A stretch of DNA of 39,898 bases from Deltaproteobacteria bacterium (GTDB taxonomy: Bacteria > Desulfobacterota > Syntrophia > Syntrophales > UBA5619). The stretch spans positions 1-39,898 of the forward strand of contig JAFGRP010000174.1 of assembly GCA_016935075.1 (NCBI GenBank), in the 5' to 3' direction. Numbering within the stretch: the first letter of the stretch is position 1; every line of letters begins with the position of its first letter. The notes beneath the pieces were generated by a model that was not told where the DNA came from, made no database searches, and was given only the letters and a program-made list of their open reading frames with translations. Shown one piece after another: positions 2,634 through 23,737 of this stretch. The position numbers were made by a program, and so were the translations under genes.

Positions 2634-3494
2634 ATGGAACACATGACCGACAGATCATCCACATATTTGCAGGAAACCATCCTCATTATCGAACCCGGTC
2701 GCACGGAGAAAAACTACTGGGCCGATCTCTGGCGCTACCGCGAACTCTTTCTGATCCTGGCCTGGCGGGATATTGCCGTCCGTTACAAGCAAACCGTCAT
2801 CGGGATTCTCTGGGCCATCCTCCGGCCGCTTCTCACAATGGTCGTCTTCACGGTTATTTTCGGACGCATCGCCGGGCTTCCCAGCGACGGCGGCGCCCCC
2901 TACGCCCTGATGGTCTTTGCGGCCATGCTGCCCTGGTCCCTCTTCTCGAACGCGCTGAGCGAATCCTCCAACAGCCTGATCGGAAACGCCAACCTGATCG
3001 GCAAAATCTACTTCCCCCGGATGATCGTTCCGGCGGCCACCCTTGTCACGGCGTTCATCGATTTTCTCATCAGCTTGGCGATCCTCCTCGTCATGATGGT
3101 CTGGTATCAATTCGCTCCCGGATGGCAAATCGTCTTGCTGCCGGCCTTCATCATCCTGGCCCTGTCGGCCAGTCTGGGCCCCGGCCTCTGGATCACGGCC
3201 CTGAACGTCAAATACCGCGATTTCCGCTATGTGATCCCCTTTGTGGTGCAGTTCGGCCTCTACATTTCCCCGGTCGGCTTCAGCAGCGGTGTCATCCCGG
3301 AGAAATGGCGGTTCCTTTACAGCCTTAATCCCCTGGTGGGGGTGATCGACGGCTTCCGCTGGTGCATCCTCGGCGGCAACAGCCCGCTTTATCTTCCCGG
3401 ATTCCTGTTGAGCCTGGCCGTTATCGTCTTTTTTCTGTGGCTGGGCGTTTCACGCTTCCGGAAGACTGAAAAAACCTTTGCCGATTTGATATAG
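2634..3494 (+). CDS. wzm: polysaccharide ABC transporter permease (Wzm/TagG type)
   Basis: RELFLILAWRDIAVRYKQTVIGILWAILRPLLTMVVFTVIFGRIAGLPSDG is typical of ABC2 polysaccharide exporters; adjacent to Wzt-like ATPase. The start could instead be the ATG at 2643. Confidence 0.92.
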   Translation: MEHMTDRSSTYLQETILIIEPGRTEKNYWADLWRYRELFLILAWRDIAVRYKQTVIGILWAILRPLLTMVVFTVIFGRIAGLPSDGGAPYALMVFAAMLPWSLFSNALSESSNSLIGNANLIGKIYFPRMIVPAATLVTAFIDFLISLAILLVMMVWYQFAPGWQIVLLPAFIILALSASLGPGLWITALNVKYRDFRYVIPFVVQFGLYISPVGFSSGVIPEKWRFLYSLNPLVGVIDGFRWCILGGNSPLYLPGFLLSLAVIVFFLWLGVSRFRKTEKTFADLI

Positions 3495-3501
3495 AAGAAC
3501 C

Positions 3502-4797
3502 ATGTCCGATTCTGTCATTAAAGCGGAGAATCTTGGAAAACGATACACCATCGGCCACCAGACCGGGAAGGGCGACCGGGCGACATTCCGGGAAGCGCTG
3601 CTCCGGCACATGCGGGATCTCTGGAACAAAACCCGGGACCTGGCTCAGGGAAAACCGATCATCCAGGGTGACACGCAGGAAGAGGTGTGGGCCCTCAAGG
3701 GCGTGAGTTTCGAGATCCGGCGGGGCGAGGCCGCCGGCATCATCGGCCGCAACGGGGCAGGCAAGAGTACGCTGCTGAAGATCTTGAGCCGTATCACCGA
3801 GCCGACAGAGGGACGGGTGACCATCAAAGGCCGCGTCGCCAGCCTTCTGGAGGTGGGAACCGGTTTCCACTCGGAACTGTCGGGGAGGGAGAACATCTAC
3901 CTGAACGGGACGATACTGGGCATGACCCGGGCCGAGATCAAACGCAAATTCGATGCGATCGTCGGCTTCGCCGAAGTGGAGAAATATCTCGATACCCCGG
4001 TCAAACGTTATTCCAGCGGCATGTACGTCCGGCTGGCCTTCGCCGTTGCCGCCCATCTGGAGCCGGAAATCCTCGTTGTCGATGAGGTTCTGGCCGTCGG
4101 GGACGCTGAATTCCAGAAGAAGTGCCTGGGAAAGATGGGCGAGGTCGCCAAAGCGGGTCGGACCGTCCTGTTTGTGAGCCACAACATGGGCGCGGTGCAA
4201 TCGCTGTGTGGAACGGCCTTTCATCTGGAATCGGGTCGCATCGCACAGACCGGCGATTCCAAGACGGTGGTTTCAAACTATCTTTCCGGTTCCGGTCGAA
4301 ATACCTCGGTGATGAAATGGCGCGACGAATCAGCGCCGGGAAATGAGGATGTCAGATTGAAATCGATCGGTGTTAATACGGGGAACCGTGATGATCGCGG
4401 CGTCTATCAGAGCCGAAACAGTATTTTCGTCGAGATGCAATTTACGGTCAATAAGATCCACTCCGCCCTTTGTATCGGTTTCGACCTGCTCAATTCTCAG
4501 GGCGAGACCATTTTAAGGAGCTATCAGACGGATATGTCCCCCGCAGACTGGCCAAAGGTCAGACAGGGGGATAATCTCTGGCGTTGCACGATCCCCGGCG
4601 GTTTGCTGAACGGCGGAATCTATAATCTTTGCCCGCGGATCGGATTGCACAATCTCAATTGGATTGTCTATCTTGGGACTGTCGTGCAATTCGAGGTCAT
4701 TCTCGATCATGGCGTTTCTCCTTTTTGGAGTTCCCTGGACAGCCGCAGTCGTCCGGGCATCATCGCCCCTGTATTCAAATGGGAATCCGGGCCCTGA
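3502..4797 (+). CDS. wzt: polysaccharide ABC transporter ATP-binding protein with C-terminal Wzt-type glycan-binding domain
   Basis: Walker A GRNGAGKSTLLK, signature YSSGMYVRLAFAVA, Walker B EILVVDEVLAVGD; extra ~160 aa C-terminal beta-rich region (residues ~270-431) as in Wzt_C. Confidence 0.92.
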   Translation: MSDSVIKAENLGKRYTIGHQTGKGDRATFREALLRHMRDLWNKTRDLAQGKPIIQGDTQEEVWALKGVSFEIRRGEAAGIIGRNGAGKSTLLKILSRITEPTEGRVTIKGRVASLLEVGTGFHSELSGRENIYLNGTILGMTRAEIKRKFDAIVGFAEVEKYLDTPVKRYSSGMYVRLAFAVAAHLEPEILVVDEVLAVGDAEFQKKCLGKMGEVAKAGRTVLFVSHNMGAVQSLCGTAFHLESGRIAQTGDSKTVVSNYLSGSGRNTSVMKWRDESAPGNEDVRLKSIGVNTGNRDDRGVYQSRNSIFVEMQFTVNKIHSALCIGFDLLNSQGETILRSYQTDMSPADWPKVRQGDNLWRCTIPGGLLNGGIYNLCPRIGLHNLNWIVYLGTVVQFEVILDHGVSPFWSSLDSRSRPGIIAPVFKWESGP

Positions 4798-4810: not shown

Positions 4811-5722
4811 ATGAGAGAAAGCGAAAGTCGCATCAGGCGTTTATTCGGGCACCTGCATCAAGGAACGCTGATCGAACGTATCCGGGAGGAGTGGCGGGCG
4901 CATATCAAAGCAAGACGAACCCTTTGGTGGCAGAAACAGACGGGGAAAAGAGAATCTGTCGTCTTCGATCTCCAGCCCGGGCTTAGAATGATGCTCTATT
5001 TCGACAGCAGGCTGAGCCGGGAAATCTATTGCGGTTCTTTCGAAAGCAAGGAACGTCAATTCATCAACCGTTATTTGAGGCCGGGAGAAATATTTGTGGA
5101 TGTCGGCGCCAATATCGGGATGTTCACGCTCATCGCATCGCAAAGGGTTGGTCAACAGGGACGGGTATACGCTTTCGAACCCTGTTCCGTGACCTATTCG
5201 CGGCTGGTTGGAAATGTCGATTTGAATGGATTGAAAAATGTGAAGTGTCTTCAGATCGCCCTGTCCGATCGTTCCGGGGAGTCGGCGATGAATGTATCCC
5301 TGGACGGGTACGATGCATGGAATTCCTTCGCGCAACCGGCGGCGGGAAATTCGTTTGCCCAAGAAAAAGTATGCGCGGCAAGGTGGGATGACTTTGCGGT
5401 AGAGCATCACCTCGCCGGCCGGGCGTCCCTGATGAAAATAGATGTCGAAGGTTGGGAAAGCCATGTCCTGTCGGGCGGTCGGGAATTTTTTGGCAGGCCG
5501 GATGCGCCGGTTCTGCAAATCGAATTCACCGACGAGGCCAGTCAATCCGCGGGGACGTCCTGTGAGGCCCTATATCGGCAACTCGAAGCTCTCGGTTATC
5601 GAATGTTTATTTACGAAGCGAAAACACGAAAACTGATTCCCGATCCCCTGCGCGAACGTTATCCCTATCTCAATTTGTTTGCGGTCAAACAGCCGGAAGA
5701 AGTCCAGGCGAGACTCGAATAG
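4811..5722 (+). CDS. FkbM family methyltransferase
   Basis: EIFVDVGANIGMFTLIASQRVGQQGRVYAFEP...LMKIDVEGWESHVLSGG. Track start 4664 overlaps wzt; ATG 4811 or GTG 4802 is more plausible. Confidence 0.85.
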   Translation: MRESESRIRRLFGHLHQGTLIERIREEWRAHIKARRTLWWQKQTGKRESVVFDLQPGLRMMLYFDSRLSREIYCGSFESKERQFINRYLRPGEIFVDVGANIGMFTLIASQRVGQQGRVYAFEPCSVTYSRLVGNVDLNGLKNVKCLQIALSDRSGESAMNVSLDGYDAWNSFAQPAAGNSFAQEKVCAARWDDFAVEHHLAGRASLMKIDVEGWESHVLSGGREFFGRPDAPVLQIEFTDEASQSAGTSCEALYRQLEALGYRMFIYEAKTRKLIPDPLRERYPYLNLFAVKQPEEVQARLE

Positions 5723-5758
5723 GGCCATTCCTGTCCGTCGAATGCCGGGATCACAACG

Positions 5759-6589
5759 ATGAATGCCACGGATTCGATAAAAGAACTCCTGAAAAGGATC
5801 GCACGGCGCTGCGGGTTTGTCGTGCAACGGTACGATCCGCGACATCCGCCGTCAAGATGCTCTCTCCAGAGTTCCATGAGAGTAGCCCACGCAATCGGGT
5901 TTGCGCCCGAAACCGTCATTGACGTCGGCGCTGCGCGTGGTTGTTGGTCCGCGGAGGTTTCAACCATCTGGCCGGAGTCTCACTATATTCTGATCGACCC
6001 GCTTGAAGAGAATCAAGATGATCTCAAAAGCGTGGGAAAAAAGCTCAAGCATTCGGATTACAGGATAGCGGCGATGACCGATCGTTCCGGGAATCTCACC
6101 CTCAACGTTCATGCCGACCTGGAAGGTTCTTCCATATTTTTGGAGCGGGAAGACGGCATCAACGGCATGCCCCGTGAAATCGAATCGCTGACCGTGGACG
6201 ACCTGGTGTCCGATATGGGCCTTCGACCCCCCATCCTTTTGAAGGCGGACGTTCAAGGGGCGGAAATGCAGGTTATCATGGGAGCGAAGCGGACATTGCC
6301 CATTGTGGAGATGATCATCCTGGAGGTGTTGCTGTTCGACATTTATCAGGGGGAAAATCCCCAGCTATTCGATACGGTGTCTTACTTGAAGTCCAATGGT
6401 TTTGTGACCTGGGATATCTTCGGAATGGGCTATCGCATGCTCGACGACGCCCTCTGTCAGGTCGACATGGTTTTCGTCCGGGAGGGCGGCCTGTTCCGGG
6501 AATTCCACCAGTATGCCAATCGGGACCAACGGCAGGAACAATTGGCTGCCATTAAAAGAGACAATCCCAAACGTTTGAACCAAAGATGA
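5759..6589 (+). CDS. FkbM family methyltransferase
   Basis: ETVIDVGAARGCWSAEVS...LLKADVQGAEMQVIMGAKRTL, FkbM-like motifs. Confidence 0.82.
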   Translation: MNATDSIKELLKRIARRCGFVVQRYDPRHPPSRCSLQSSMRVAHAIGFAPETVIDVGAARGCWSAEVSTIWPESHYILIDPLEENQDDLKSVGKKLKHSDYRIAAMTDRSGNLTLNVHADLEGSSIFLEREDGINGMPREIESLTVDDLVSDMGLRPPILLKADVQGAEMQVIMGAKRTLPIVEMIILEVLLFDIYQGENPQLFDTVSYLKSNGFVTWDIFGMGYRMLDDALCQVDMVFVREGGLFREFHQYANRDQRQEQLAAIKRDNPKRLNQR

Positions 6590-7461
6590 CAGCCACACCC
6601 AAAATCAGCATTGTCACCCCCTCATACAATCAGGGAGAATATCTTGAGGCAACGATCAAATCCGTTCTCGATCAGGCTTACGAGGGGTTGGAGTACGTCA
6701 TCGTCGATGCGGGATCATCGGACCGCAGTGTCGATATCATCAGGCATTATGAAAAGAGACTCGCGTATTGGGTGAGCGAGCCGGACGCCGGACATGCCGA
6801 CGGCATCAACAAGGGTTTCGCACGGACGCATGCCGGAATCATGGGGTGGATCAACAGCTCCGATGTCTATTACCCCTGGACACTGAAAACCGTCGTCCGG
6901 ATATTTGAAGATCTGCCGGAAGTCAAATGGATTTCGGGCATTCCGACTATTGTATCTGATGGGGCCGTGCCGAAAAGAATCAAAGCCGACCACAGAAACC
7001 AATATGACTTTCTCTCCGGTCGTTATAACTGGCTGCAGCAGGAATCCATGTTCTGGCGGAGAGGTTTATGGGACGAAGTCGGGGGGAAACTCAATGCGAA
7101 TCTGAAGTATGCCTGCGATTTTGAATTGTGGTTAAGGTTTTTCCGAAAAACTTCATTATGCTATGTCGACACGATCCTTGCCGGATTCAGAACCCATGAA
7201 AATCAACGCGGCGCCGGCGCCGTGGACGTTTACCGTGCAGAAGCTGCTCAGGCCTTTGCCGGTTTCCGGCGATTTTATGGAAATCGTGACCGCCTGCGGG
7301 CTAATTTTATCAGACTGACAAACGGCAGGCAGGGACGGCTATTTAGAGCACTTCTAAGACACTTCGGGCTTATTCGCTGGTATGCCCATCCCCAGATTTT
7401 GTTTGATTTTGAGGAGAAGCGATGGGTGTTGGCCAAGGATTCGGGAGCGGATCTGTTCTGA
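6586..7461 (+). CDS. glycosyltransferase family 2
   Basis: PKISIVTPSYNQGEYLEATIKSVLDQAYEGLEYVIVDAGSSDRS...INKGFARTHAGIMGWINSSD; ATGA overlap with upstream gene. Confidence 0.93.
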   Translation: MTATPKISIVTPSYNQGEYLEATIKSVLDQAYEGLEYVIVDAGSSDRSVDIIRHYEKRLAYWVSEPDAGHADGINKGFARTHAGIMGWINSSDVYYPWTLKTVVRIFEDLPEVKWISGIPTIVSDGAVPKRIKADHRNQYDFLSGRYNWLQQESMFWRRGLWDEVGGKLNANLKYACDFELWLRFFRKTSLCYVDTILAGFRTHENQRGAGAVDVYRAEAAQAFAGFRRFYGNRDRLRANFIRLTNGRQGRLFRALLRHFGLIRWYAHPQILFDFEEKRWVLAKDSGADLF

Positions 7462-7524
7462 TTTGATCGGGCTGGAGATGATCAGAGGTGCTCGTTGGCA
7501 AATGACACTGCCGGGTGGTGAATC

Positions 7525-8541
7525 ATGATGGCGGGCCGCGCATCGGTTGACAAAAAATACATTGTCACGATGCGTCATAAAAGGGGGATGCACACCGACG
7601 TCTATGAAGACTTCGAAGCGGACCTTATCCGATACACCGGCTGGAAGGCCGTCCGGGGATCCTTCAATATCCTGGAGCGCATTTTTGAAAAATTTTTTCT
7701 GCCCCGTCTTCATTATCGGACCTTTCCTTTAAACCTTCCCTCGCTGCATCGCAACAGGATCTACTTCTCATCCCTTTCAGGGATAGAATACATAAAAATC
7801 TTTCAACATTATTCGTTTCGCGCAAAACTCAAGGCGATCTACCAGTTCGACTCCTGGACGCATGATAATGCCGTCAACGAAAACGCCTTCCGGTCATTCG
7901 GAATCAACATCGCCTTTGTTTCCATCAAAAGGGCTGCCGAGTATTTCAATGCATTGCGGATTCCCGGTTTTAAAGCATACTGGATACCGGAGGCCATTCG
8001 CTGCGACCGTTATCGCTGGCTGGATTATGGGGACAAGAATATTGACTTTTTGCAGTACGGGCGGCGCTGGGATTGGATGCACAAACAATTGCTCGCCTTT
8101 TGCAAATCAAGGGATCTCCGTTATCAATACCCTCAGGACCGGGACCATGACAAAAGCCAGTTTACAGACAGGGAGGCGCTTCTGGACGGATTGGCCAAAT
8201 CCAAAATCGCCGTCTGTGTTCCTAAAACGATTACCCATCCTGAGATTCACGATCTCTCCACCGTCACAACGAGATATTTTGAGTGCATGGCTTCGAAATG
8301 CCTGATCCTGGGGCATGCGCCCGAGGATCTCATCGCCCTGTCTGGATACAATCCGGTTGTGGAGGTCGATTATTCCGATCCCGTCGGCCAGTTGGAATAT
8401 CTCCTGGACCACTATCTCGGATTTGTCCCGCTGATTGAAAAGAATTATCGGATGATAAAAGAAGGACACCAGTGGAAAAACAGAATCACGGAGATTGCCA
8501 GAATCATTGACAAAGCCAGCGGTTTCGAAGGGATGACATGA
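7525..8541 (+). CDS. GT-B glycosyltransferase-like protein (glycosyl transferase group 1-like C-terminus)
   Basis: 338 aa; C-terminal TRYFECMASKCLILGHAPEDLIALSGYNPVVEVDY resembles the GT group 1 donor region; flanked by GT genes. Confidence 0.65.
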   Translation: MMAGRASVDKKYIVTMRHKRGMHTDVYEDFEADLIRYTGWKAVRGSFNILERIFEKFFLPRLHYRTFPLNLPSLHRNRIYFSSLSGIEYIKIFQHYSFRAKLKAIYQFDSWTHDNAVNENAFRSFGINIAFVSIKRAAEYFNALRIPGFKAYWIPEAIRCDRYRWLDYGDKNIDFLQYGRRWDWMHKQLLAFCKSRDLRYQYPQDRDHDKSQFTDREALLDGLAKSKIAVCVPKTITHPEIHDLSTVTTRYFECMASKCLILGHAPEDLIALSGYNPVVEVDYSDPVGQLEYLLDHYLGFVPLIEKNYRMIKEGHQWKNRITEIARIIDKASGFEGMT

Positions 8542-9560
8542 AAATCCTCTTCAGCGGACATCATAATCCCCATTTTTTTACCATCACAGAATATCAGGAA
8601 AGTGCAATCAGGTCGTTGGGGCATGAACTTGTTGTATTTGAAGATCGACAGCACAGAATTCCGGGAAGGTTGAGGAAACGGTTCAACTTCTTACATAGAA
8701 TTGATCAAAAAATAATTAGTCGACAACTACTTTCACTTGTCTGGGCCACCATGCCGGACATAGTTATCGTCCAAGGCGGATACAGAGAATTACCGGATAC
8801 ACTGAAGAGGTTAAAAAAATTTGGGACGAAAACAATTTTATGGACAACCGACGCCCCCATATCATTTCAAGTTATCATAGAAACGGCACCACTTTACGAT
8901 TATATCTTTTGTTTGGGCACTGAGGCCATTGAGTTACTTGATCGGGCTGGCATTAAAGGCGCTCAATGGTTACCGATGGCATGCGATCCCGATTACCATC
9001 ATCCTGTCAAATGTACACCCGATGAATTGAAAAAATTTGGCAGTGATGTCGTTTTTGTCGGCTCTTACTACCCGGAACGGGCGACGTTGTTTGAGCGCTT
9101 GTTAGTGTTGAATTCTTGCGAACTTGCGATATGGGGACCAGGCTGGAATGCCCTGCCAGCTGCTTCCCCATTGCGAAAACATATAAGGGGTCTCCATATC
9201 CGTCCCGAAGAATGGCTGAAGATATACAGCGCCGGTAAGATTGTCCTCTCTGCACACTATCATGACCCGCAGGGAGTGATTCCCGTTTATCAGGCCAGCC
9301 CCCGGGTCTTTGAGATCATGGCCTGCGGGGCCTTTCAGCTTTGCGACGATCAACGGGATGTGTTCGCGCTCTTCAAAGACGGGCAGGATCTTGTCAAATT
9401 CTCGGACGGGAAAGATCTGGTTGCCAAGGTGAAATATTATCTCGACCATCCCGAAGAGAGAAAGGCGATTGCATCGCAAGGCAGGAAGACGGTGTTGGCC
9501 CGTCACACCTATCGGGACCGCGTCAGGGAATTGTTGGCAAAGATTGGCCATGATGTCTGA
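8538..9560 (+). CDS. CgeB-like glycosyltransferase
   Basis: ASPRVFEIMACGAFQLCDDQRDVFALFKDGQDLVKFSDGKDLVAKVKYYLDHPEER is typical of CgeB/GT group 1 proteins; ATGA overlap with upstream CDS. Confidence 0.78.
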   Translation: MKILFSGHHNPHFFTITEYQESAIRSLGHELVVFEDRQHRIPGRLRKRFNFLHRIDQKIISRQLLSLVWATMPDIVIVQGGYRELPDTLKRLKKFGTKTILWTTDAPISFQVIIETAPLYDYIFCLGTEAIELLDRAGIKGAQWLPMACDPDYHHPVKCTPDELKKFGSDVVFVGSYYPERATLFERLLVLNSCELAIWGPGWNALPAASPLRKHIRGLHIRPEEWLKIYSAGKIVLSAHYHDPQGVIPVYQASPRVFEIMACGAFQLCDDQRDVFALFKDGQDLVKFSDGKDLVAKVKYYLDHPEERKAIASQGRKTVLARHTYRDRVRELLAKIGHDV

Positions 9561-11830: not shown

Positions 11831-12654
11831 AGGACAAGACGACCATATGCAATCTCTGTGGAGCGGTTCACTTCAATGTTGTCGAAGACAGTGAAAAACC
11901 CTTTTATGTGCTGAAGTGTATCCGCTGCGGGCTTGTTTTTGTCGATCCGGTTCCAGAACCATCCTTCCTTGAGGCACATTACGATGCGGATTACTATGCG
12001 GACTGGATGGGGCCGCAGCAGGAAAAACGCCTCCGGATGTGGCGAAAGAGGCTGGATACGATAGAGAAACGCTCGCCCAAGGGACGACTCCTGGACGTGG
12101 GTTGCGCCACAGGCACTTTCCTTCAATTGGCACAAAAGAACGGCTGGGAAGTCGAGGGAACGGAATTGTCACCGTATGCGGTATCGTTTGCAAAGAATCT
12201 CCTGAACGCCAATATTTTTTGCGGCCACCTGATGGATGCAGGGTATGAAGAGGCGTCTTTCGACGTGGTCACGTTCTGGCATGTCCTGGAACATCTCTCC
12301 GATCCGATGCGCTACCTGCAGGAAGCACATCGGATCCTCAAACCGTCCGGGCTCCTGGTCATTGCCGCCCCCAACGTCAACGATTACATCATGAAGATCT
12401 CATACAGGATTGTGAAACGACGCCCGCTGAAGCTGTTTTTCAGGACCGACCGGGAGATTCATCTCTTTCACTTTTCAGCGGATACCTTGCGATTATATCT
12501 GAATAAAACGGGATTCCGATGCACCGGTATTTTCCCGGACAACGGCATCACCGAACCATCCAAAAGGGTGGTCCATGCCGTCGGCGTGGCCCTCTACCAT
12601 GTGACGGGGTTGAGATTCTTCAACGCCCTGGAGGTCCATGCGATTCGCGTTTGA
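11827..12654 (+). CDS. class I SAM-dependent methyltransferase with N-terminal zinc ribbon
   Basis: CNLCG...CIRCG Cys pairs; LLDVGCATGTFLQLAQKNGWEVEGTELS; FWHVLEHLSDPMRYLQEAHRILKPSG. Confidence 0.9.
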   Translation: MKDKTTICNLCGAVHFNVVEDSEKPFYVLKCIRCGLVFVDPVPEPSFLEAHYDADYYADWMGPQQEKRLRMWRKRLDTIEKRSPKGRLLDVGCATGTFLQLAQKNGWEVEGTELSPYAVSFAKNLLNANIFCGHLMDAGYEEASFDVVTFWHVLEHLSDPMRYLQEAHRILKPSGLLVIAAPNVNDYIMKISYRIVKRRPLKLFFRTDREIHLFHFSADTLRLYLNKTGFRCTGIFPDNGITEPSKRVVHAVGVALYHVTGLRFFNALEVHAIRV

Positions 12655-13774
12655 AATCCGGATAAAGGTTGTAATCAAGACAATCTACCTGACGGCCAGA
12701 AGGTATGCGCTCAGAGGACTCCATCTCCTCCTTTCTCGTGAAAAATCCATCCCTGTTTCCGAAAGTCTTCGGACCATTCTTTTTATTCGTGTGGACAGGG
12801 TCGGGGATATGGTCCTCTCCACTCCGGCCTTTGAGGCGATAAAGGCCGCATTCCCCCGGGCTCAACTCACGGTGATGGCATCGAAGGTGAATATGTCCAT
12901 CCTGAAATACAATCCCCATGTGGATGAGGTGATCGTCTATGACCGCTCTGCGATCCTGACTGAAAAGATTCACTTTTTGAAGGGTTTACGGCGGCACCAT
13001 TTCGATCTGGCCATCGATCCCTGCGACGACTATGAATTGGAAACGGCCTGGATCGCCTGGATGAGCGGTGCAACTTATCGGATAGGTTATGCGGCATATG
13101 GCCGGGAGATCTTTTTAAATGGACCGACGCCAAAAATCGAGGCAGAAAAGCATTTCATCGATGTCACACGCGATCTTTTACGATTCATCGGTGTTACATC
13201 CGATCATTACCATCCACTCATTTATCTGGATGAATCCGAACAGGTGTGGGCAACAAAATGGCTTAAGGAAAAGGGACTGCAAGACAAGATGCTCATCGCG
13301 ATCCATCCGGGGGCACATTACGAAACGCAGCGTTGGCCGCCGAAATACCACGCCGAGCTGATTCGTTTAATTCGTGATCGCACGAAGACCGAGGTCATCC
13401 TGTTCGGAGCCCCGGCGGACGCCGGCCTGATTGCGAAAATCCAGGACATGGTTCAAAAACCCGTTCATGTATCCATTGAATCCGATATCCGGCGCTTCCT
13501 GGCTCTCCTGTCCCGTTGCAGGATGCTTGTGTGCAACAATTCCGGGCCGCTGCATTGCGCCGCGGCACTCCATGTTCCCACCATTTCTTTCATGGGCCCC
13601 ACAGCCAAAGAACGTTGGATGCCTATCGGAGACATGCATCACGTTTTGAGAATCGACGACCTGCCCTGCATAGGCTGCAATATTGGCACCTGTAAAATCA
13701 AGACCCACGATTGCATGAGATTGATCCGGCCGGAAAAAGTGCTCCAGATTATAAGCGAGAAAATCAATGGTTGA
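12638..13774 (+). CDS. glycosyltransferase family 9 (heptosyltransferase-like)
   Basis: ILFIRVDRVGDMVLSTPAFEAIKAAFPRAQLTVMAS...IAIHPGAHYETQRWPPKYHAELI...LVCNNSGPLHCAAALHVPTISFMGPT. Confidence 0.92.
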   Translation: MRFAFEIRIKVVIKTIYLTARRYALRGLHLLLSREKSIPVSESLRTILFIRVDRVGDMVLSTPAFEAIKAAFPRAQLTVMASKVNMSILKYNPHVDEVIVYDRSAILTEKIHFLKGLRRHHFDLAIDPCDDYELETAWIAWMSGATYRIGYAAYGREIFLNGPTPKIEAEKHFIDVTRDLLRFIGVTSDHYHPLIYLDESEQVWATKWLKEKGLQDKMLIAIHPGAHYETQRWPPKYHAELIRLIRDRTKTEVILFGAPADAGLIAKIQDMVQKPVHVSIESDIRRFLALLSRCRMLVCNNSGPLHCAAALHVPTISFMGPTAKERWMPIGDMHHVLRIDDLPCIGCNIGTCKIKTHDCMRLIRPEKVLQIISEKING

Positions 13775-13817: not shown

Positions 13818-15776
13818 TTACGACAACCTGAATTTCATGCCTTTGACATCATCCATGACCTTATCCGGATCGTTCGTGATTTTATCCCTGAACAGCCAGC
13901 CGATATACAGAGCTATGAATTGTCCGTGAAGATCGTGAGGCACCCCAAATTTTTCGAGTATTGCTTTCGTGCAGTCAATGTAAGCGGCATTACGCGACAA
14001 TTTTTCAAGCCGTTTGATGACGACAGCACCTTGCATCGGGTGTCTACGCGCATTTATCACAAGATTTCGCAATAGGAAATCGTACCAGTTCAAAACAGCG
14101 GGACCTATCCGAGCGTGTTCAAAATCGAGCAATATGATTTTATCCTCCTCTTTGTACACAATGATGTTCCCGGAGTTCAAATCGCCATGTATTATCTGGC
14201 TCTTTTGAAGAAAGGAATGTAACTCCGGGCTCAATCCGTTTTCCCGAACAATATCCGCAAGGTTTTCCCTGATGTCAATTTTTTCAAAGATACTAGGCAT
14301 ATCTTCCGATTTGACATTGAGTTCGCCAAACATTCCCATGATGTGGACAAGACTCCTGACACAATGACGTTTCTTTATGTTTAGTTGCCTACCCGGAACT
14401 GCATCTGTCAGCGTTATCGGACCATGTCCGGTTTCGTAAACGTTTGAATAAAGGCAGTGGCCGGCCAGCGATGGAGAATTCTTTCTGATATATTCTACGC
14501 AGATTTGCGATATTCCGGCTTTCGTCCGTGCCCTGTCGCTGATTGGTATTGAACATTTCCGCCTGATTTTACCGGAATGCCTGTCAACAATGAATATCCC
14601 CGCATTTCTGACGGTTACAACGACAGCCATGCCGGTTTCCCGGGCGTCACCTAATTTGATTAAGGACCCTGCCTTTCTTATTCCTATCAGCGGCGGATTT
14701 GATTCAGACGCCATGATTATCCATGATGGAGAAAAAAACGATGCTGCCAGATTCATGAGCGTTACGGAAATGGTCCTAATTTTATCTGGAAGATTTGAAA
14801 ACCACGAGGCTGTGTTAAACGACGAAGATAAAATTGAAGCAAACAGAAAGTGTATTGCACCAGGGCCGTGTAAAGATATCAGATATCTTGCATTTCTGTA
14901 GCTTGGATGCACTCCGAAACAAAGGGTTTGTTTCAGTCCGCATTCGTCAAGCAGTTTCAATAAAGCATGTCGCGAGTGTGTAATGGCTCTGAATTCATTT
15001 TTCTTGATAATCCTGTGATATATACGCGCTACATGTCTGGGCAGGATTGAAACAAAACGAAGCCCTGTGTGCTCTTCGTTATATCCGAGAAAATATTGAA
15101 GGCCGAACCTGTTTTCAATCGCCAAGCATAAGGTTCCGTCAGGTTTAAGAACGCGTTTGATTTCAAGTAAAGCTTTTTTTTGTAAAGTTTCCGGGGGTTC
15201 GTTATCCGTAATAGTCCCGATCCATTCCAAAACGCCGTTAAGCACAACCACATCGAAGAATTTGTCTTCAAAGGGCATAGATAAAATACTTCCCTGAACC
15301 GCATGCACGTTTTTATTTTTATTCTGGGCCGCTCTTATATTTATAAAATGAAGCCCGTCAATCTGGGTGTCAAGCGCGTAAGTGTCGTCAAATTCGCGCG
15401 ACAGCCAGAATGTTAAACCACCCCATCCGCACCCGCAGTCCAATGCCCTGCCTTTTGGCGAACACAGGATTGAAAGCGGAAATCGTTTACGGCCGGAAAT
15501 CCAATCGGCACGGTCCGGGTCCATGTCTTTTAACGACTGTTCCCAGCCGAGCAAACGGGCGTTGTCGAGTATTGTGCCGGACGAATTCTTGTCCGGTATG
15601 CTCCATGCGCTTGTATTGCCTGCGAAGCAGGGAATGCCGCTATTAACGGGATAAGAAACGCCGCATTGCGCGCATGACAAGGAATCGACACCGGGCTCAA
15701 GCCTGTGCTTGCAGGAGGGACATACAAATTCGTTGTTGGCAGCATTGTTAATGGTTGAATCAACAGGTATATTCAT
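13818..15776 (-). CDS. zinc-ribbon + class I methyltransferase + APH-type kinase fusion protein
   Basis: CPSC...CAQC ribbon; ALDCGCGWGGLTFWLSREFDDTYALDTQ (SAM motif I); C-terminal IIHGDLNSGNIIVYKEEDKIILLDFEHARIGP (APH catalytic loop and DFE). Start chosen at ATG 15776 (MNIPVDS); track start 15815 is GTG. Confidence 0.85.
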   Translation of the reverse strand: MNIPVDSTINNAANNEFVCPSCKHRLEPGVDSLSCAQCGVSYPVNSGIPCFAGNTSAWSIPDKNSSGTILDNARLLGWEQSLKDMDPDRADWISGRKRFPLSILCSPKGRALDCGCGWGGLTFWLSREFDDTYALDTQIDGLHFINIRAAQNKNKNVHAVQGSILSMPFEDKFFDVVVLNGVLEWIGTITDNEPPETLQKKALLEIKRVLKPDGTLCLAIENRFGLQYFLGYNEEHTGLRFVSILPRHVARIYHRIIKKNEFRAITHSRHALLKLLDECGLKQTLCFGVHPSYRNARYLISLHGPGAIHFLFASILSSSFNTASWFSNLPDKIRTISVTLMNLAASFFSPSWIIMASESNPPLIGIRKAGSLIKLGDARETGMAVVVTVRNAGIFIVDRHSGKIRRKCSIPISDRARTKAGISQICVEYIRKNSPSLAGHCLYSNVYETGHGPITLTDAVPGRQLNIKKRHCVRSLVHIMGMFGELNVKSEDMPSIFEKIDIRENLADIVRENGLSPELHSFLQKSQIIHGDLNSGNIIVYKEEDKIILLDFEHARIGPAVLNWYDFLLRNLVINARRHPMQGAVVIKRLEKLSRNAAYIDCTKAILEKFGVPHDLHGQFIALYIGWLFRDKITNDPDKVMDDVKGMKFRLS

Positions 15777-20119: not shown

Positions 20120-20294
20120 TTCATCGCAAAAGATGAAAGAGATGATCGACACAAAAAGGATAGTCTTGACACACAAGCTATAATATGATAACAATTTCAG
20201 AAGGATGAATGATTTACGGGGCGTTGGTATTTCAAATTCAGCCTTTCCGAAAGGAATTCGGGCATACGGAAGACGGAAGATAGAAGGTGAAGCG

Positions 20295-22214
20295 ATGAAA
20301 AAGTTATTGATCAAGACGGCCGTTTTGGCCGCGATATTGGCCTCCTTGGCAATGACCGTTACGGCCCATGCTGAACCCATCACCGTGGGCAATGATACAG
20401 CCGCAAGGGAAGAAGCAGACGGGTGGAGCGATTTTGTCGTTGTCGATAAAAATCATCCGGTATCTCTCGATGGTTGGCTGACGATCTTCAAATATTATGC
20501 CTTGGACCAAAGTCCTTTCCGCTTTATACTGATCGATGGAAGCAATACGGTCCGGTGGGTGAGTGAACAAATTACGCCCGCGGGAGAAGGGGTTAATGTG
20601 TTTGCCCCCGACAGCGCTGTCGAGGTCAAGGCGGGGTGGAATTTGGGTCTCTATATTGTTGAAACCGGATCAATTCCTTATGAGTCTCATGGCGCTCTTG
20701 CCTCCTATACGGCAGAATATTCAGGGCTTCCGGGCGTCGGAAATATATTAAGTTTTACGGGTAGCATCAACCGTACCTATTCCTTTGTGGCTGCCGGCGA
20801 CACGCAAGTGACGACCCCGCCTACAACCGTGAGCGTTACCGTCGTTCAATACCTGGATGGCGGGCCAGCAACTGCAGCTTCCGCAAACAATACCTATTTC
20901 CTGATAAACGATTCCTGGAGCGATCCCAATATCGGTTCAGGCTCCAGCCGTTTTGCCCTTGGTCCGGTTGGTTTGAACACGGACAGTCCTTACCAGGCCG
21001 TTACCGCCAGTATGACCGGCGGCGCCTCCTACAACATCAGCGAAGATACAAACCAGTATGCGGTCGGAACAACTTGCGGTAATGGACGGGCATACCGATT
21101 GGCCGGCTATACCGTAGGCGATACGATGGCCGAGGCCGCGGCGGCAACTCCCAACCTTATGGAACCGAATCTCACCCTGACGGGGAGCAAATACGTCATA
21201 GTCTGGAACAACACCTGTGCACAGGATCAAACCATCGTGGCCGGCAATGACACAAACGGCACAGATATCAGGCCAATCCTGGACACTTTTGGCGATTTTG
21301 TGATCATCGATACCAACCATCCGGTATCCGCCAACGGCTGGTTGACGAACTTTCATTATTACGCCGCCAATCTGAACCCCTTCCGTTTTGTTCTGGTTGA
21401 CGGAAGCGACGTGGTCCAATGGGTCAGCGATGAAATCATCCCGCCGGAAACGGGAATCCAAACCTTTACCGTTTCCGCTCCGGTTCCCGCCCAGAAAGGG
21501 TGGAACGTGGGTTTGTATTTCGCGGCGACCGGCAACCTGTATAACGGCACCATCCCCTATGAATACACAGGCGCCCCGGCCTACTATCGGTCGAACTATT
21601 CCGGTTCACCGCTGCCGGCGGTGGGCAAAACCCTGGTCTATGAAAACAGCAGCAACCGGATCTACTCTTTCGCGGCCACCGGTGTCACATCCATTCCTCT
21701 TCCCGAGACGGTGAGCGTGACCGTCGTCAAATACCTGGACGGGACGCGTGCCGATGCCGCTTCCGCAAACGATACCTCATTCCCGATGCAATCCATTTGG
21801 AGTGCCGATAACCTCAATGCCGGTTCCTCCAGTTTCGTTCTGGGTCCGACCGGTGTCAATACCTCAAATTCCTATGAAGCGGTAACGCCTGAAATGACAA
21901 GCGGCGCTTTCTACAGCGTCTGGGAAGATACCAGCCAGATGACGGTCGGCATGACATGCGATGGCGACCATTTGTACCGGTTGGCCGGCTATACCACCGG
22001 CGAAACGCTTGCGCAGGCCGTTACGGCAAAAAAAACCACCAAGACGCCCAGCTTAAGCAATATAGCCAGTAACCAATACGTCATCGTCTGGAACGAGGCG
22101 TGCGAGACCGATGATTGTACGGACGACAATGGCCATCACTACGGGAACGACAAGGGCGACAATCACAAAGACAAATGCAAGGATAAAAAGGATAAAGACA
22201 ACAAGGATAAATAA
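20295..22214 (+). CDS. secreted protein with two ~280-aa tandem repeats and Lys/Asp-rich C-terminus
   Basis: Signal peptide MKKLLIKTAVLAAILASLAMTVTAHA; two copies of GNDT...D(F)VVVDKNHPVS...GWLT...FRF.L.DGS...WVS...VSVTVV.YLDG...VIVWN..C; tail DDCTDDNGHHYGNDKGDNHKDKCKDKKDKDNKDK. Start moved from track 20205 to ATG 20295. Confidence 0.82.
   Translation: MKKLLIKTAVLAAILASLAMTVTAHAEPITVGNDTAAREEADGWSDFVVVDKNHPVSLDGWLTIFKYYALDQSPFRFILIDGSNTVRWVSEQITPAGEGVNVFAPDSAVEVKAGWNLGLYIVETGSIPYESHGALASYTAEYSGLPGVGNILSFTGSINRTYSFVAAGDTQVTTPPTTVSVTVVQYLDGGPATAASANNTYFLINDSWSDPNIGSGSSRFALGPVGLNTDSPYQAVTASMTGGASYNISEDTNQYAVGTTCGNGRAYRLAGYTVGDTMAEAAAATPNLMEPNLTLTGSKYVIVWNNTCAQDQTIVAGNDTNGTDIRPILDTFGDFVIIDTNHPVSANGWLTNFHYYAANLNPFRFVLVDGSDVVQWVSDEIIPPETGIQTFTVSAPVPAQKGWNVGLYFAATGNLYNGTIPYEYTGAPAYYRSNYSGSPLPAVGKTLVYENSSNRIYSFAATGVTSIPLPETVSVTVVKYLDGTRADAASANDTSFPMQSIWSADNLNAGSSSFVLGPTGVNTSNSYEAVTPEMTSGAFYSVWEDTSQMTVGMTCDGDHLYRLAGYTTGETLAQAVTAKKTTKTPSLSNIASNQYVIVWNEACETDDCTDDNGHHYGNDKGDNHKDKCKDKKDKDNKDK
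20388..21218 (+). repeat. protein-coding tandem repeat unit 1
   Basis: Encodes GNDTAAREE...YVIVWNNTC; aligns by eye to unit 2. Confidence 0.75.
21243..22103 (+). repeat. protein-coding tandem repeat unit 2
   Basis: Encodes GNDTNGTDI...YVIVWNEAC; same order of motifs as unit 1 and visible DNA-level similarity (e.g. gtgagcgttaccgtcgttcaatacctgga vs gtgagcgtgaccgtcgtcaaatacctgga). Confidence 0.75.
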
Positions 22215-22264
22215 GGATCACGGGAACAAGCTTGATGGGCTTGGGTGACCCATTAAAACAGACG

Positions 22265-23737
22265 ATGACTATCTCCCGCAACTTCCTCTCCTCGCTCATC
22301 CTTTTTGCAGCAACTTGCCTCTTGCCTGTTTCGCCGCCCCCGGCCTGCGGGCAAACCACGCCTGTGCCCTACGAACAGGTTCCCGCCCTGATGGACCTGC
22401 GCACCACCTTCAGCGACGGTGATTACGATCCCGAGGCCCTCGTGCAGATGGCCCTCAGGAAGGGCTTCAGCATCGTCTTTCTCAACGATCATGACCGCAT
22501 GGTCATGGAATATGGCTTCCCGCCCTTCCGGAATATCGTCCGAAAGAAAGTGGAGCTGAACTCCATCAACAAATCAGGGGCGGATCGATATCTCCGGGTC
22601 ATCACAGGTCTCCGGAAGATGTACCCGAATGTGATCCTCATCCCCGGCACGGAGAGCGCCCCCTTTTATTACTGGACGGGCAGCCCGTTTGCCGGGACCC
22701 TGACCGCCAACGACCATGAACGCCGGATATTGACGATGGGGCTGGAAAAGCCGGAAGACTACGAAACCCTGCCCATTCTGCACAACGGTCTCTCCGGATC
22801 CCATATCCGGGCGGTGATGCCCGCGCTTCTGGCATTCATTTTCTGCTTCCTGATCGCCGTCTACTTCCTGTTCAAGAACGGCTGGTGGCGTATTTCCGGG
22901 ATCTTCCTGGCCATCTTCAGCGCCGGTTTTTTCATCAATACCGTATTCGCCCGACCTTCCCCTTTCGACGCTTACCACGGGAAACAGGGCGCGGCGCCGT
23001 ATCAGCTCTTTATCGACGCCGTCGGGCAGAAGGGGGGCCTCACCTTCTGGAACTATCCGGAAACACGCTCGGGAGTCAGAAAACTGGGTCCCATTGGGGT
23101 GAAAACCCTGCCTTACCCCCATATGCTTCTGGAAACGAGAAACTATACGGGCTTTGCCGCCATTTATGGGGATACGGTCACGATTACGGAGCCGGGAAAT
23201 GTCTGGGATGTGGTCCTGGGGGAGTACTGTTCGGGATTCCGGAAACGGCCGCCGTGGGGAATCGCCACGGCGGACTTTCATAAGGAAGGGGGTTCCGGCC
23301 AGAACCTGGGCGACTTCCAGACCGTCCTTTGGCTGACCGAAAAATCCCCCCGGTCCGTTTTGGAGGCCCTGAAGGCCGGCAAGATGTACGCCTGTCAGGG
23401 AAAGTTCCCCAAAATCCCCCGGCTCGACGAATTCTCCGTATCCGCCGCTGAACCGGATACAGTCCCCCCGATGATTTCCGGGGATGAACTCATTCTGGAA
23501 CGCAATCCCCGTATTCGGATCGCCGTCTCCGGCGGCGTGGCAGGAGCAGGAAAGGAGGTCCGTGTGCGGCTGATCCGTTCCGGGAGTCTCATCCGGATCT
23601 TCAAGGGGTCCTTGCCCCTGAATATCGATTACACGGATATTCTGGAGACGCCGGGAGAAAAGATCTACTATCGGATGGACATGACCGGGTACGGGACCAT
23701 CGTCTCCAACCCGATCTTCGTGAAATTCACCAGATGA
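22265..23737 (+). CDS. exported/membrane PHP-domain-like protein
   Basis: Signal-like N-terminus; PHP-like MDLRTTFSDGDYDPEALVQMALRKGFSIVFLNDHDRM, GTES, WGIATADFHKEG; internal hydrophobic segments AVMPALLAFIFCFLIAVYFLF and ISGIFLAIFSAGFFINTVFA. Start moved from 22232 to ATG 22265. Confidence 0.75.
   Translation: MTISRNFLSSLILFAATCLLPVSPPPACGQTTPVPYEQVPALMDLRTTFSDGDYDPEALVQMALRKGFSIVFLNDHDRMVMEYGFPPFRNIVRKKVELNSINKSGADRYLRVITGLRKMYPNVILIPGTESAPFYYWTGSPFAGTLTANDHERRILTMGLEKPEDYETLPILHNGLSGSHIRAVMPALLAFIFCFLIAVYFLFKNGWWRISGIFLAIFSAGFFINTVFARPSPFDAYHGKQGAAPYQLFIDAVGQKGGLTFWNYPETRSGVRKLGPIGVKTLPYPHMLLETRNYTGFAAIYGDTVTITEPGNVWDVVLGEYCSGFRKRPPWGIATADFHKEGGSGQNLGDFQTVLWLTEKSPRSVLEALKAGKMYACQGKFPKIPRLDEFSVSAAEPDTVPPMISGDELILERNPRIRIAVSGGVAGAGKEVRVRLIRSGSLIRIFKGSLPLNIDYTDILETPGEKIYYRMDMTGYGTIVSNPIFVKFTR

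Follow-up and report, generated by a model that had tools for sequence, protein, structure and literature searches.

A methyltransferase-kinase fusion in a surface glycan cluster as a candidate for methylphosphate decoration that may follow the glycan rather than its exporter

Methylphosphate ends are known stop-and-export marks of ABC-exported O-chains. WbdD of E. coli O9a carries its methyltransferase in front of a eukaryotic-type kinase (HDD..PWN, DFG) and has a coiled coil in the C-terminal region 460-708 (PMC3482155). ORF6 of Klebsiella O7 phosphorylates the glycan end and then methylates this phosphate in vitro, and terminators of its architecture consist of a methyltransferase, an unannotated kinase domain, a coiled coil and sometimes a GT2 domain (PMC11231755). 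Lcin_0519 of Legionella appears to be of the same kind; its family combines methyltransferase and kinase in one protein with a predicted role in LPS modification (PMC9758233). Lani_1194/NoeA, a further kinase-methyltransferase fusion, may decorate secreted glycolipids. As the equivalent of its kinase lysine is R38, its kinase is apparently N-terminal and the domain order appears opposite to that of the protein studied here, from which it was set apart on the published description (PMC9758233).

The window, the whole stretch of 39,898 nucleotides that was analysed, encodes a methyltransferase-kinase fusion with the following features:

13818..15776, minus strand: methyltransferase-kinase fusion gene, 652 aa (ORF, Pfam)
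15642..15725, minus strand: N-terminal zinc ribbon, residues 18-45, CPSC...CAQC, Trm112-like (Trm112p E 0.0015, under cut-off; pLDDT about 90)
14877..15491, minus strand: class I SAM methyltransferase domain, residues 96-300 (Pfam; AF2 pLDDT mostly 65-96; Foldseek to methyltransferases E 3e-11)
15420..15440, minus strand: SAM-binding motif DCGCGWG, residues 113-119 (motif reading)
15069..15116, minus strand: ENRFGLQYFLGYNEEH, residues 221-236, motif in common with the ORF6-O7/Lcin_0519-like branch (carried by both branches, and by none of 36 generic methyltransferases)
13821..14693, minus strand: APH-type kinase domain, residues 362-652 (Pfam, alignment, low-confidence model with kinase-like strand order)
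14166..14189, minus strand: catalytic loop HGDLNSGN, residues 530-537 (H, G, D and N invariant, n=9 kinase sequences)
14118..14126, minus strand: metal-binding DFE, residues 551-553 (D invariant, n=9 kinase sequences)

The preliminary description of this DNA had placed a zinc ribbon, a SAM methyltransferase and an APH-type kinase in one reading frame. The frame starts with an ATG at 15776 and is free of internal stops, the motifs were located, and an HMM search of both halves bore out the two large domains, with matches over the curated cut-offs for Methyltransf_11 (5.5e-17) and APH (PF01636; 4.4e-6, 27.1 bits against a cut-off of 23.2). The signature motifs of the APH fold, HGDxxxxN and D(F/W)(E/D), are both there. 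The cysteine pairs of the zinc ribbon are present (CPSC, residues 19-22; CAQC, residues 35-38), while its Trm112p match stays below the cut-off. In the predicted structures from two AlphaFold jobs the methyltransferase half is well modelled and matches solved methyltransferases in Foldseek, whereas the model of the kinase half is of low quality (pLDDT about 40) and retrieves mostly kinases with E-values above 0.03, which are not significant. A joint alignment including kinase-only rows was left out of the folding, as it misplaced the N-lobes across the methyltransferase. Short helices are all that the low-confidence model shows at the C-terminus, where the protein ends with the kinase. In a heptad scan, a simple and crude home-made score, the protein scored below its shuffled sequence; no coiled coil was detected, in line with the earlier view that a C-terminal coiled-coil ruler is missing. 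With a GC content of 0.453 and a third-position GC of 0.481, the lowest among the window genes measured, the base composition suggests that the fusion gene is a later arrival in the cluster.

The earlier proposal of a WbdD analogue is partly supported, with a methyltransferase followed by a kinase in a glycan locus, a conserved catalytic loop and a grouping with methylphosphate terminators; kinship with WbdD and export-coupled termination are not supported. The domain order and, as proposed, the general chemistry resemble those of WbdD (PMC3482155). Membership in the WbdD family was rejected, as the sequence kinship is negligible: BLASTP of the window protein against WbdD gave E 0.2, the methyltransferase profile aligned over only 44 columns at the SAM motif, and the kinase profile reached a probability of 2%. 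WbdD also has no zinc ribbon, and the window protein has neither a C-terminal coiled-coil ruler nor a membrane- or polymerase-binding region. The family is not that of WbdD, while the methylphosphate-type chemistry is likely to have been suggested correctly.

Profile searches of the window's class and phylum yielded ten clear relatives of the fusion protein. In other sampled genomes of its genus nothing beyond a generic methyltransferase domain was found, and a pattern-based scan of genome contigs for close relatives returned one unrelated methyltransferase only. Two relatives (L052, L053) are fusions like the window protein, and six (L051, L055, L082, L084, L085, L086) are adjacent pairs with the methyltransferase gene first, the gene ends overlapping or nearly so. 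L083 is cut off by the contig end, and L054 is a methyltransferase relative with no kinase gene beside it. The methyltransferase is thus paired with an APH-type kinase in nine of the ten testable loci of the window branch (three fused, six adjacent). As no reading frame with the kinase motif lies beside any of 36 generic methyltransferases, and the kinase-loop residues are invariant, the pairing of the two enzymes is real and not due to chance. Glycan genes are present in the loci with annotated neighbours.

The H, G, D and N of the catalytic loop and the metal-binding D, which in the window protein begins the DFEHA sequence at residue 551, are invariant in all nine aligned kinase sequences of the branch. 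Together with the conserved partners, this loop identifies a real kinase-type domain, as judged by sequence. In a by-eye ungapped alignment with the fused relative L053, Ser is read at both positions of the ion pair, that of the lysine in the N-lobe and that of the glutamate in helix C, so the N-lobe of the window protein looks degenerate or divergent and the protein may have a changed kinase activity or none. A kinase half that is inactive, leaving the methyltransferase to act alone, would account for this loss of the ion pair; we regard it as extremely improbable, since the residues of the catalytic loop and the metal site are all kept, the Lcin_0519 kinases likewise have no recognisable ion-pair glutamate (PMC9758233), and ORF6-O7, whose kinase is atypical, is active (PMC11231755).

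A set of longer proteins (L056-L058, L060-L062, L038), from the window's phylum and, for L062, a Citrobacter plasmid, fits the description of the ORF6-O7 terminator architecture. Published SAM-site residues of ORF6 (Y28, Y66, G91, G93, E112, Y158) correspond to invariant residues of the set (Y27, Y65, G92, G94, E113 and Y159 in L062 numbering), and the kinase residue D441 to the invariant D446; the link to ORF6-O7 is thus one of residue numbering and of the architecture of lookalikes, not of direct sequence alignment. L002, a non-member, was left out of the alignment. This set and the window family have in common the motif EN(R/Q/K)..G..(D/E)xH together with the segment that follows it, while ENR..G..DH occurs in none of the 36 generic methyltransferases checked. 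Set against the ORF6/Lcin_0519-like profile, that of the window branch's methyltransferase half gave an alignment of 301 columns (E 2.7e-37), compared with 165 columns (E 3e-31) for a control with generic methyltransferases; in view of this control the E-value carries little information by itself, and the alignment length and the motif are more telling. In the methyltransferase tree the window branch and the ORF6-like set group together with a support of 82/59, or 97/93 with one extra row, giving moderate support to a sister relationship. For the kinase halves, profile comparison between the two branches gave a weak match of 41 columns covering the catalytic loop (probability 31%, E 5e-4).

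Like ORF6-O7, the window protein consists of a methyltransferase followed by an APH/AmiN-like kinase and is encoded in a glycan locus, and it shares the methyltransferase extension and the ENR..DH motif with the ORF6-O7 lookalikes. It differs in its zinc ribbon, its canonical HGD..N loop and the missing coil, whereas ORF6-O7 has a CBM-like domain, a coiled coil, GT2 modules and a pathway with an ABC exporter (PMC11231755). The Lcin_0519 family differs in that it often comes with Wzt/Wzm and a coiled coil and is devoid of helix C (PMC9758233). The APH-like kinase had been taken as a departure from WbdD; given the in vitro activity of ORF6, Klebsiella O7 already provides an example of a methylphosphate terminator with such a kinase (PMC11231755).

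Several ORF6/Lcin_0519-like methyltransferase-kinase proteins adjoin Wzt or Wzm/Wzt (L057, L058, L060, L062, L091, L092), and some of these carry a coiled coil and GT2 modules; the Citrobacter plasmid with L062 is conjugative. L090 is a split form of the ORF6-like type (4920-8495 and 8489-9394, both on the minus strand), in which the methyltransferase gene is followed by a 1192-aa gene with a kinase-like domain at its start and GT2.

The surroundings of the fusion gene in the window include:

12638..13774, plus strand: GT9, heptosyltransferase II-like, convergent neighbour (TIGR02195 132.3 bits vs cut-off 134.6)
2634..3494, plus strand: Wzm, ABC permease (domain search)
3502..4797, plus strand: Wzt ATPase with weak Wzt_C extension (Wzt_C E 0.001, under cut-off)
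4811..5722, plus strand: FkbM methyltransferase, next gene downstream of wzt and competing candidate for the terminator (TIGR01444 6.1e-28)
5759..6589, plus strand: second FkbM methyltransferase (TIGR01444 1.8e-20)

The fusion gene is the sole minus-strand gene of the glycan cluster, as described earlier, with plus-strand neighbours on both sides; the GT9 gene ends about 44 bases away from it, and the divergent GT4 gene starts at a distance of about 45 bases. Wzm and Wzt are both present, while the extended C-terminal domain attributed to Wzt corresponds to a weak match. Elsewhere in the same genome (G000:C146:9064-9450) there is another Wzt, whose Wzt_C domain is clear (1.2e-29). Two further proteins of the window have no Pfam match, one of 501 aa that is probably membrane-anchored (22232-23737) and one of 669 aa with two similar halves, which also has no NCBIfam match (20205-22214).

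The fact that the cluster also encodes Wzm and a C-terminally extended Wzt, and that the ORF6-like branch, which is of the proven terminator kind, adjoins Wzm and/or Wzt in six of nine loci, would fit a WbdD-like chain terminator, which places methylphosphate at the non-reducing end, thereby halting polymerisation and labelling the chain for the C-terminal domain of Wzt. We consider this role unlikely for the window protein. No coiled-coil ruler is present, the gene is antisense and 9 kb away from wzt, and the Wzt_C match of this Wzt is under the cut-off. The two FkbM methyltransferases (4811-6589) lie directly downstream of wzt, where ORF6-like loci usually have their terminator, and are better placed than the fusion protein as candidates for an export-linked end mark. 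The co-occurrence with Wzm/Wzt expected from the preliminary description largely fails: Wzt lies beside the methyltransferase-kinase gene at one of eleven window-branch loci, the window itself, and beside none of the ten relatives. As some contigs are short, this absence at the locus level weighs less than the genome-wide search, in which a Wzt_C domain was detected in two of the eleven genomes (in G372 on another contig) and was absent in nine of the ten others; this search misses Wzt proteins devoid of that domain.

Wzx-type flippases are found on the same contig as the pair in G250, G174 and G431. The most informative case is G250, which belongs to another family of the phylum: its locus (L051, L087) is orthologous to that of the window, with identities of 41% for the WzyC-like protein, 42% for a GT, 41% for GT4, 40% for GT9, 48% for DegT, 52% for PIG-L, 54% for WbqC and 41% for the MraY-like protein. 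The best G250 match of the window's GT9 (L051:11335-12498) adjoins the split methyltransferase-kinase pair. Methyltransferase and kinase genes are kept there as neighbours and Wzx replaces Wzm/Wzt, an apparent exporter swap. With Wzt found only at the window among the eleven loci and Wzx in the orthologous locus, export-coupled termination is not supported across the relatives. From the G250 locus and the relatives in heptosyltransferase loci, the pair appears to go with the glycan and not with the exporter.

We lean slightly, at little better than even, towards a cytoplasmic two-step glycan-decorating enzyme that adds methylphosphate and serves the glycan of the cluster and not its exporter. 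The C-terminal APH-type kinase would phosphorylate a sugar hydroxyl of a surface glycan (O-chain or LPS-core-like) during its growth; the methyltransferase at the N-terminus would next methylate that phosphate, so that the glycan carries methylphosphate as a substituent or as a cap. What is observed are the domains, a catalytic loop with its residues intact, the conserved pairing, the ENR..DH motif and the fact that the protein groups with a family characterised as adding methylphosphate. Counting against this reading are the weak match between the kinase halves of the two branches, the Ser read at both N-lobe positions, the poor kinase model, the moderate support of the sister node and the relative L054, which has no kinase gene next to it. 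Phosphorylation and then methylation of the phosphate is the most likely chemistry in view of the homology to ORF6 and the fused or coupled arrangement; we infer a sugar as the acceptor, the sequence of the steps, the position, and a methyl group on the phosphate rather than on a sugar hydroxyl.

The neighbourhoods could also be read as pointing to two separate modifications, with the kinase phosphorylating a core sugar (e.g. heptose, WaaP/WaaY-like) and the methyltransferase making an O-methyl sugar. Heptosyltransferase-family genes lie beside the pair in five of eleven loci, three of them (L082, L085, L086) LPS-core-type loci with heptosyltransferase III over the cut-off, and in one locus a Kdo-kinase-like gene is adjacent. 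Such a division of labour is quite unlikely, as the related ORF6 methylates phosphate and not sugar (PMC11231755), and fusion and tight gene coupling favour a single common acceptor. An action of both domains on a soluble precursor, as a small-molecule or nucleotide-sugar enzyme, would agree with the best kinase model, Pfam APH, which includes small-molecule kinases; it seems very improbable because the sole characterised relative acts on polymer ends and no dedicated nucleotide-sugar pathway was seen with the pair across the annotated loci.

Returning to the decoration of the cluster's glycan, we tentatively suggest, as a possibility short of an even chance, that methyltransferase-kinase pairs, as fused or adjacent genes, form a branch of their own that is independent of the exporter and puts methylphosphate on Wzx-type and LPS-core-type glycans. 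This would extend an end mark of ABC export to glycans that are exported otherwise, and methylphosphate made in Wzx or LPS-core-type loci would serve for something other than recognition by an exporter. The fused and split pattern over eleven loci and the orthologous pair of loci differing in their exporter make the exporter-independence directly testable. At L085, a phytase gene (7321-8466, minus strand; PF02333, 3.9e-105) lies just downstream of the split methyltransferase-kinase pair.
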